Below are positions 35,952 through 40,528 of a stretch of 41,028 nucleotides of DNA, piece after piece; positions within the stretch are counted from its first letter, which is position 1, and each line of letters starts with the position of its first letter. The DNA comes from Pseudolactococcus plantarum (GTDB lineage: Bacteria > Bacillota > Bacilli > Lactobacillales > Streptococcaceae), in the NCBI GenBank assembly GCA_030454995.1, contig JAKDQI010000002.1, positions 1-41,028 of the forward strand, given 5' to 3'. The position numbers were made by a program, and so were the translations under genes. The notes below the pieces were generated by a model. The model was not told the DNA's origin and ran no database searches. It saw nothing but the letters and a program-made list of their open reading frames with translations.

Positions 35952-36740
35952 TTAGAAGTTGCGTCCTTCAAGTTTTTCATAAATACCTGAATTAACAACT
36001 TTCAAATAAGTTCCCTTCATACCTAGAGAACGAGATTCGATAATCCCTGCTGATTCAAGCTTACGCAAGGCATTAACAATAACCGAACGTGTAATACCAA
36101 TTTTATCAGCAATAACAGAAGCAGTCAAACGTCCTTCTTCTCCACCCAACTCTTCAAGGATTGCCTTAACAGCTTTCATCTCAGAGTAAGATAGTGTGCT
36201 AACTGCCATATTAACAGCTGCTGATTTACGGATGCTTTCTTCCATTTTTTCAATTTGAAGGTTAGATAGTTGAATACCAATGACAGTCGTTGCAATCTCT
36301 ACAAGCACCAAGTCATCTTCATCAAATTCACCCTCGTTACGCCAGATAATAAATGTACCCAAACGCAACCCACTACCATAAATCGGTGCCACAGTCGTTT
36401 TACCATTCGGGAAGTCTTTGATAACTTCTTGTGGGTAGAGTGACAATACCGCATCAGCTGGCAAGTTAGCTTCAGTATCGTAAGTACGTGAAGCAACTTG
36501 TACATACTCAGCTGAAAGCTTTCTCTCATCAAACATCGCTTCTACACGATCATTATTTGTTTTATAAGGCATCGCATAGCCTAGTACATCACCATGTCCA
36601 TCGATGACTAATGAATTACAATCGATGACACCTGAAAGACGTTCAGATAATCCTTTGTAAGGGAGTACATCACCTGAATTGTTCAATCCTTCTTGTAAAA
36701 TCGCTGTTATCTTTCTAGTATTTTCTAATAAAGTAGCCAT
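35952..36740 (-). CDS. codY: GTP/BCAA-sensing global regulator CodY
   Basis: [19 protein letters not shown] region, C-terminal w[44 protein letters not shown]. Confidence 0.98.
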
Positions 36741-36803: not shown

Positions 36804-36818
36804 AATATTCAGAAAATT
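36804..36818. promoter_or_regulatory. CodY box upstream of codY
   Basis: AATATTCAGAAAATT versus consensus AATTTTCWGAAAATT: 14/15 match. Confidence 0.75.
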
Positions 36819-36844: not shown

Positions 36845-38266
36845 TTACCTGCAGTATTGGTGTAAAAATCGTGTCATCTTCTCTTGGATCATAGCCAATT
36901 CATCTAATCGCGGCATATACACGATACGGAAATGATCTGGCTCTTTCCAGTTAAACCCACGTCCTTGAACAAGCATTACTTTTTCTTGCTTGAGAAAATC
37001 TAAAACAAATTGCTCATCATCTTGAATGTCATACATATTCCTATCGATTTTAGGGAAAATATAGAAGGCTGCTTTTGGTTTAACAGCTGAGATACCAGGG
37101 ATTTCATTCATCGCTTTATAAATAAACTCACGTTGTTCATAGATGCGTCCTCCCGGCAACAACAGCTCATCTATTGACTGTGTCCCACCTAAAGAAGTCT
37201 GGATAACTTGTTGCGCTAAGACATTTGAACACAAACGCATACTAGCCAACATGTCTAAACCTTCAATATAGCCTTTTGCATGTTTTTTCTCTCCAGAAAG
37301 CACCATCCAACCGACACGGAATCCAGCAATTCTATGTGATTTAGATAGTCCACCCATAGTCACAACAAATAAATCTGGTGCTAAACTAGCAATGGGTACA
37401 TGCTGTAAACCATCCATAATCACACGATCATAAATCTCATCTGAAAAAATGATCAAATTATGTTGGCGCGCTACTTCTGCAATCTCTAACAATAACTCTT
37501 TTGGATAAACAGCTCCCGTAGGATTATTAGGGTTAATGATGACAATTGCTTTAGTATTTGAGGTAATTTTAGACTTGATATCTGCGATATCAGGAAACCA
37601 CTCTGCTGATTCATCACAAAGATAATGTACCGCATTACCGCCTGCCAAACTTACTGATGCTGTCCATAATGGATAATCTGGCATAGGGATTAATACCTCA
37701 TCTCCATTATTTAACAGTCCATTCATTGACATAGAGATTAACTCACTCACGCCATTGCCGGTATAAATATCGTTCACATCAACATTTGGAAACCCATGCA
37801 GTTGACAATACTGCATAATTGCTTTTCTAGCACTAAAGATTCCCTTACTATCTGAGTAGCCTTCACTATCACGTGCATTCATAATCAAGTCGCGTAATAC
37901 TTCATCCGGTGCTGTGAAGCCGAATTCTGCCGGATTACCTGTATTAAGGCGTAGGATTTTCTCACCGTTTGCGCGCATCCGGTTTGCTTCATCTAATACT
38001 GGGCCACGAATATCATAGGCTACATGATCCAATTTACTTGATTTTTCAAATTTGTCCATTCTTTCCCCTAACTCGTTAGTTTCTTTTGTAATCTCTATTA
38101 ACTCAACACCATATAATTCAGCTAATTTTCTGAGACTTTCTTCCTTAGGTTTTGCGTTCCCTTTTTCCCAAGCCCAGTAAGAAGGCTTTGATACACCGAT
38201 ACTTCTGGCCACCTCTGCTTGACTTAGACCAGATTTTTCTCTTAGTCGAATTAGATTGTTTTTCAT
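36845..38266 (-). CDS. XRE-family HTH fused to an AlaA (YfbQ)-type alanine aminotransferase
   Basis: Residues about 1-60: LIRLREKSGLSQAEVARSIGVSKPSYWAWEKGNAKPKEESLRKLAELYGVEL (HTH_3). From about 75: HVAYDIRGPVLDEANRMRANGEKILRLNTGNPAEFGFTAPDEVLRDL ... INPNNPTGAVYPKELL ... GLSKSHRIAGFRVGWM (PLP lysine). Confidence 0.93.
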   Translation of the reverse strand: MKNNLIRLREKSGLSQAEVARSIGVSKPSYWAWEKGNAKPKEESLRKLAELYGVELIEITKETNELGERMDKFEKSSKLDHVAYDIRGPVLDEANRMRANGEKILRLNTGNPAEFGFTAPDEVLRDLIMNARDSEGYSDSKGIFSARKAIMQYCQLHGFPNVDVNDIYTGNGVSELISMSMNGLLNNGDEVLIPMPDYPLWTASVSLAGGNAVHYLCDESAEWFPDIADIKSKITSNTKAIVIINPNNPTGAVYPKELLLEIAEVARQHNLIIFSDEIYDRVIMDGLQHVPIASLAPDLFVVTMGGLSKSHRIAGFRVGWMVLSGEKKHAKGYIEGLDMLASMRLCSNVLAQQVIQTSLGGTQSIDELLLPGGRIYEQREFIYKAMNEIPGISAVKPKAAFYIFPKIDRNMYDIQDDEQFVLDFLKQEKVMLVQGRGFNWKEPDHFRIVYMPRLDELAMIQEKMTRFLHQYCR

Positions 38267-38280
38267 ACCTTTACCACTTC

Positions 38281-38308
38281 CGTTAGTTTTATTTAACTAA
38301 CGTTAGTT
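38281..38308. promoter_or_regulatory. Palindromic operator with an additional half-site upstream of the HTH-aminotransferase gene
   Basis: CGTTAGTT(38281-38288)-ttattt-AACTAACGTTAGTT(38295-38308, perfect 14-bp palindrome). Confidence 0.75.
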
Positions 38309-38333
38309 TAACACTTCTATCCTCATTCGTCAA
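38305..38333 (-). promoter_or_regulatory. Sigma-A-like promoter of the HTH-aminotransferase gene
   Basis: Minus strand TTGACG - 17 bp - TAAACT. Confidence 0.65.
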
Positions 38334-39606: not shown

Positions 39607-40528
39607 TTAAGGTAGTACATTCCCTGCTGCTTGATACAATGAATACCATTCTTCACGTGTTAATACGATATCTGATGCCTCTGTCACTTCCACAATACGT
39701 GAGGTATTCATCGTACCAATAATTGTTTGCATCTTAGCCGGATGTCGATTAATAAACGCAATCGCTATACCTGATGGTGTACTATCATACTGCTCCGCCA
39801 ACTCTATTAGGCGTTTGTTAAGCTCAGGAAATTTTTTCCATATTTCCCACAAAAGGACCTTCAAAAAAACCATATTGGAACGGCGACCAAGCTTGAATCG
39901 TCACATTTTCTATTCTTGAATACTCTAAAATACCACTATCACGCACTAATCCAGCTTGATTTGTCATATTAACATTAATTCCTGAATCAACCATACCCGT
40001 ATACATTAAGCCAAACTGCAACTGATTAATATTCATCGATTGCTGAATGGCTGTTTTCAACAACTCTATTTGGCCTGGATTTTGATTTGATACACCGAAT
40101 GCACGAACTTTACCTGCTTTTTCCAGTTGCGTAAATGCTTCTGCTACCTCTTCAGGCTCTACCAAAGTATCTGGTCTATGTAATAATAAAGCATCCAGAT
40201 AATCAGTATCTAGTCTTTTTAAACTACCTTCAACGGCTTCGATGATATGTGCTTTTGAAAAATCAAATGCTATACCGGGTCGGATCCCCACTTTAGACTG
40301 TATGTAGATATCTGATCGAGAAATAGTGGTTGCTTTTAAGGCCTTAGCAAAAATCGTTTCACAAGTGCCACCACCATAGATATCCGCATGATCAAAGAAA
40401 TTCACACCGTTATCATAAGCTGTTTGAATAATTGTAGCAACATCTAGACTAGGTTCATTCATCCTCATACATCCAAGTACGACTTGACTGGCCTTAATTT
40501 CTGTATTTGCAATTTGAATTTGTTTCAT
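39607..40528 (-). pseudogene. Aldo/keto reductase split by a frameshift at an A-run (39832-39837)
   Basis: ORF 39824-40528 carries the N-terminal AKR half (NFFDHADIYGGGTCETIFAKAL, LHRPDTLVEPEEVAEAF). ORF 39607-39873 carries the C-terminal half (EKFPELNKRLIELAEQYDSTPSGIAIAFINRHPAKMQTIIGTMN) in another frame. Confidence 0.88.

Follow-up and report, generated by a model that had tools for sequence, protein, structure and literature searches.

In Pseudolactococcus plantarum (L. plantarum below), the reading frame of an AlaA-type aminotransferase begins with a helix-turn-helix (HTH) domain, which raises the question of what a metabolic enzyme would do with a DNA-binding domain and whether the gene that it acts on is its own. 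The locus lies in a window of 41,028 nucleotides, the whole stretch of DNA that was analysed (features in Table 1), from a genome that, at 99% protein identity to DSM 20686, belongs to L. plantarum or a very close relative. It was compared with a genus group of 12 genomes including L. plantarum, L. piscium, L. chungangensis, L. raffinolactis and L. insecticola, as well as with more distant relatives; many of the genomes compared are draft assemblies. The reading that we favor, with a probability of about 0.7, is that the protein is a bifunctional trigger enzyme, that is, an AlaA aminotransferase carrying an XRE-type HTH, a dimer of which would sit on a 14-bp palindrome and repress its own gene only.

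Table 1. Features of the alaA locus (positions in the window)
Feature	Position	Strand	Basis
-35 element TTGACG	38328..38333	-	promoter inspection, alignment of relatives
-10 element TAAACT, 17-bp spacer, overlaps palindrome	38305..38310	-	
Palindromic operator AACTAACGTTAGTT (predicted)	38295..38308	not applicable	conserved in relatives
Third half-site AACTAACG, 20 bp from first, adjoins ribosome-binding site	38281..38288	-	core CTAACG in all fused genomes
Fused ORF: XRE HTH, linker, AlaA-type aminotransferase, 473 aa	36845..38266	-	orthologous fusion in 10/12 genus genomes
HTH_3 (XRE) domain, residues 6-58	38093..38251	-	Pfam, AlphaFold2
Inter-domain linker, residues 59-69	38060..38092	-	low AlphaFold2 confidence, amino acids poorly conserved
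Half-site AACTAACG within linker-coding DNA	38074..38081	-	6/7 species-level lineages
SD-like AGGGG before Met70 codon	about 38064-38068	-	
Putative internal start codon ATG (Met70), in frame	38057..38059	-	matches stand-alone AlaA start
AlaA aminotransferase part, residues 70-473	36848..38059	-	orthology, invariant residues
CodY-box-like AATTTTCTGAATATT, 1 mismatch, alaA-codY gap	36804..36818	-	
codY, next gene downstream	35952..36740	-	

The first-pass annotation had described an XRE HTH and a complete AlaA aminotransferase with its PLP lysine in one ORF, and each of these was found. The protein matches HTH_3 (PF01381) with an E-value of 7e-13 and 48.8 bits against a gathering score of 23, which places the domain in the XRE family, and Aminotran_1_2 spans residues 103-453 (E 7e-51). 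The closest solved structure is that of the E. coli glutamate-pyruvate aminotransferase AlaA (PDB 4CVQ), an enzyme without an HTH, which aligns with residues 69-471 (E 5e-180) and also ranks first in a Foldseek search with the AlphaFold2 model, at 64% identity in the alignment. The PLP lysine is K309 in the motif GLSKSH; like D276, Y279, N248, R317 and R447, whose roles, as that of K309, we presume from what is generally known of fold-type I aminotransferases, it is invariant across 30 orthologues. In the AlphaFold2 model confidence is high for the five N-terminal helices (pLDDT about 86-91), low for the linker (below 45) and only moderate for the enzyme part (mean pLDDT 70.6). The recognition-helix region, KPxYWAWEKGNA, is invariant within the genus. 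The score against the NCBIfam alanine aminotransferase model NF006230 (339 bits) lies under its cut-off of 534, and the assignment of the C-terminal part to AlaA is made on orthology and on its PLP- and substrate-binding residues, from which the enzyme part is probably an intact, catalytically competent AlaA of the glutamate-pyruvate aminotransferase type. That the fusion is a sequencing artefact, or represents two separate genes, can be rejected because the identical frame runs uninterrupted through both parts in 10 genomes.

Enzymes that repress their own genes are known, PutA and BirA being trigger enzymes in which catalysis and DNA binding reside in one polypeptide. The fusion would share this one-polypeptide plan, its DNA binding being predicted, but differs from both in enzyme class and fold. 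A closer resemblance in layout is to the MocR/GabR/PdxR group of GntR regulators, which likewise consist of an N-terminal HTH, a linker and a fold-type I aminotransferase-like domain and are controlled by ligands, PLP and an amino compound, and GabR, which is dimeric and represses its own gene (PMC6917764), may be regarded by analogy as the nearest functional parallel. The C-terminal part of the fusion does have the aminotransferase fold of the MocR proteins (Aminotran_1_2, with 4CVQ as best match). However, the N-terminus matches HTH_3, HTH_31 and HTH_19 alone in Pfam, with no match to the GntR-type winged HTH (PF00392) of MocR proteins, and whereas the latter carry an aminotransferase-like sensor, the fusion carries an AlaA-orthologous part with the active-site residues kept. 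Lacking a GntR domain, and with an enzyme part that looks intact, the fusion is not a MocR protein, as had been surmised from the sequence at first sight. No description of an XRE-aminotransferase fusion was found in the full text of the open-access papers covered.

If the HTH acts on its own gene, its site should be sought at the promoter, where a palindrome overlapping the -10 element of TTGACG-N17-TAAACT and a further half-site copy, CGTTAGTT, six bp 3' of it had been pointed out; both were found as described. Allowing up to two mismatches, the 14-mer has a single match in the window, and at least one such match occurred in 26 of 100 shuffled windows, so that the palindrome by itself is weak evidence. 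Its significance comes from comparison. The arrangement TTGAC-N18-TAAACTAACGTTAG, that is, promoter plus palindrome, is kept upstream of the fusion in 10 of 10 fused genomes, so that the outcome named beforehand as refuting the idea, orthologous fusions without the palindrome, did not occur, and in an alignment of eight species-level sequences anchored on the -35 element, 14 consecutive columns (TAAACTAACGTTAG) running from the -10 element through most of the palindrome are invariant, as against none of the 60 columns in the 60 bp upstream of the promoter. In all fused genomes the third half-site follows the first at a distance of 20 or 21 bp, about two helical turns. Searches for a wider regulon, which was therewith rejected as a candidate, gave no conserved second site either with a genome-wide pattern or across the genus: each fused genome has one site at alaA, the ACTAACGTTAGT motif is conserved in the genus at alaA only, and those near-matches of the operator in L. 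plantarum itself that were inspected fall within coding sequence. The absence of a conserved second site in these searches gives the system the appearance of a one-target autorepressor.

The distribution of the fusion within the genus group allows domain and operator to be followed together. The HTH is present in 10 of the 12 genomes; the other two (G005 and G006) encode the enzyme alone, and neither has an operator match at alaA with up to one mismatch. Since in the enzyme tree their alaA genes are nested in the fused clade at two different places (support 99/97 and 84/81), the simplest account is two losses of the HTH, each accompanied by that of the operator. An operator at the own promoter that co-occurs with a DNA-binding domain is what marks a self-repressing trigger enzyme, and here the count is 10 of 10 against 0 of 2 (Fisher 0.015, uncorrected for genome relatedness, the joint loss resting on two events only). 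Operator and HTH thus appear to have been gained and lost together, which makes autogenous control by the enzyme probable. Both domains are under constraint, with dN/dS values of 0.01-0.03 for the enzyme part (very strong purifying selection) and of about 0.06-0.31 for the HTH, indicating purifying selection there too; a hint of low synonymous divergence of the HTH in some species pairs is not borne out by others. The amino acids of the linker are far more variable, and near neutrality in some pairs. In Streptococcus, in Enterococcus and in the L. lactis group the enzyme stands alone, is about 404 aa long and starts, with MxxFEKSxKL or similar, at a position corresponding to Met70 of the fusion. 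In Lactobacillales as a whole the enzyme is present in 161 of 398 sampled genomes and, judged by where the match starts, no fusion except that of L. plantarum itself was among the matches listed for these 161. An intermediate with adjacent but separate XRE and alaA genes was also considered and found no example, a search of the fetched loci with HTH models returning only the fused copies and two S24 repressors.

Outside the order, AlaA was found behind other HTH domains in a Clostridia MAG (L115/L139) and in seven further genomes (L142-L144, L156-L159). L115 passes the Pfam cut-off for HTH_3, which L142 and L144 narrowly miss. In the enzyme tree L139 stands apart from the seven other Clostridia fusions, and both stand apart from Lactococcus, which implies at least three origins of the HTH fusion; AlaA would thus have gained an HTH independently at least two further times, in (gut) Clostridia. 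The larger Clostridia group also has a leader motif of its own, TTGAACTTT: two to four copies of TGAACTT/AAGTTCA are present in the leaders of seven of the eight fused loci, whereas none of 29 unfused Clostridia loci has two or more (Fisher 8e-7, relatedness uncorrected), and in the eighth fused locus, L139, repeats of the AAGTTTAAA type take their place. Enzyme, HTH and motif are therefore associated in a second lineage as well, and autoregulation through the palindrome, as first proposed for L. plantarum, is well supported by comparison. Six of the fused Clostridia genes (L142, L143, L144, L156, L157 and L158) in addition have a AAGTTCAA copy about 1007 nt past the KSxKL motif, inside the enzyme-coding region, which could be either an additional site or a by-product of protein sequence that they share. 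It would seem that, on several independent occasions, an enzyme of central metabolism whose active site is intact was made its own repressor by acquiring an unrelated DNA-binding domain, and the repeated gain and loss of operator and domain amount to natural experiments on the evolution of trigger enzymes.

From these comparisons we infer that the fusion binds DNA and represses transcription as a dimer. The enzyme dimer would pair two HTHs on the palindrome over the -10 element, the bound dimer would block RNA polymerase and thereby repress its own gene only, and the third half-site and the half-site in the linker DNA could strengthen or extend binding. What tunes binding can be guessed at: it may be the ligand state of the active site (PLP or substrate aldimine) or mere protein concentration. 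Sensing of PLP, alanine, pyruvate or glutamate is only plausible, and simple concentration feedback would explain the sequence equally well as control by the state of the active site. Under such feedback, a sub-case of the autorepressor reading whose likelihood overlaps with it, the HTH would bind the palindrome independently of any metabolite and repression would rise with protein concentration. We regard this as a serious contender at somewhat less than even odds. There is a single target site only, no sequence feature shows a sensing role, and the enzyme part is constrained as strongly as expected for a plain enzyme; on the other hand, the PLP-bound aminotransferase fold of MocR proteins can couple ligand state to the HTHs (PMC6917764), and the gain of an HTH at least three times by one enzyme family hints at an advantage of coupling. 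Either way, the locus would allow a test of whether an amino-acid enzyme can adjust its level with no regulator besides itself.

The DNA between the two domains carries signals of its own. The half-site ACTAACG recurs in the linker-coding DNA of six of seven species-level lineages, being missing in the Nc350 MAG, and the half-site copies near the 5' end of the coding sequence are spread over two reading frames but share one orientation; that they are kept in two frames while the linker amino acids vary suggests selection on nucleotides rather than on protein. Most fused genes moreover have a start codon at the position of the stand-alone enzyme's first residue. The SD-like signal before it is strong in six of eight Clostridia (combined Fisher p 9e-8) and in three of seven Lactococcus species including L. 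plantarum (combined p 0.016 over all seven); L. insecticola and members of the chungangensis/raffinolactis group have a weak one. In L142, ACTGAACTTTTGGAGG precedes the first and the internal start alike. With an SD-like sequence and an in-frame start in the linker, one gene may make both the full-length fusion and the stand-alone enzyme, and one might guess that heterodimers with a single HTH bind poorly. The linker itself is possibly a relic, the translated former leader of alaA. These linker signals, the recurrence of the half-site in most Lactococcus species and the Clostridia fusions with their own leader motif go beyond what had been noted for this locus. A more sweeping scenario, which we think rather doubtful, would be that AlaA became its own metabolite-gated repressor at least three times through captured XRE HTHs, that one frame yields a full-length repressor-enzyme and an internally started stand-alone enzyme whose heterodimers set the level of repression, and that the linker, once the operator and ribosome-binding site of alaA, came to be translated and so preserves a record of the fusion's origin.

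It could also be that the CTAACG repeats act in the mRNA, where half-sites 2 and 3 would pair into a 5' hairpin by the SD and, with the copy before the internal SD, control translation. These two half-sites do form an inverted repeat (8 bp in L. plantarum), in which L. insecticola shows one compensatory change, and the in-ORF copies share one orientation in two frames. However, C-A mismatches occur in two lineages, the motif overlaps the -10 element, a transcription start about 7 nt past the latter would exclude the greater part of the 5' arm from the transcript, and no Rfam element was found above chance at the locus, so we consider control at the mRNA level improbable. Quite improbable, too, is binding of the operator by another XRE protein while the fused HTH does something else. 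The candidate would be an HdiR-like repressor, as the closest HTH in the genome (52% identity over residues 4-68) belongs to an HTH-Peptidase_S24 protein beside a umuC-like gene, differing from the fusion in its C-terminal S24 peptidase; nothing usable on the HdiR operator was found in the open-access literature. Yet the ACTAACGTTAGT motif has no conserved copy in the genus away from alaA and is gone in both genomes where alaA lost its HTH. That the HTH is a decaying passenger of an old gene fusion and the palindrome a fossil is very improbable, for although at least two losses of the HTH left the enzyme intact, the HTH is under purifying selection, the operator is invariant across the genus and parallel fusions exist in Clostridia.

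The adjacency of codY, which the first-pass annotation pointed out, says little. The gene starts 104 bp downstream of the fused ORF on the same strand, but the same gene order is seen for alaA genes without the HTH, in several streptococci and in the L. lactis group, and in L. insecticola about 1.3 kb lies between codY and a retained fusion; the neighborhood is therefore older than the fusion, and codY as a functional partner was discarded. The CodY-box-like AATTTTCTGAATATT upstream of codY is similar in relatives, HTH-less ones included, and probably reflects CodY self-regulation independent of the fusion. A weaker CodY-box-like match (2 mismatches, 38124-38138) lies in the HTH coding region and is not obviously conserved. 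In L. insecticola (L012) a further CGTTAGT copy is located just past the alaA stop, and the Nc350 MAG has three ACTAACGTTACT copies 42 bp apart (G002:C4:24112-24207), probably a tandem repeat unrelated to alaA. Finally, two overlapping aldo/keto-reductase-like ORFs of 234 and 88 aa at 39607-40528 on the minus strand look like one frameshift-split gene, either a pseudogene or an assembly error.
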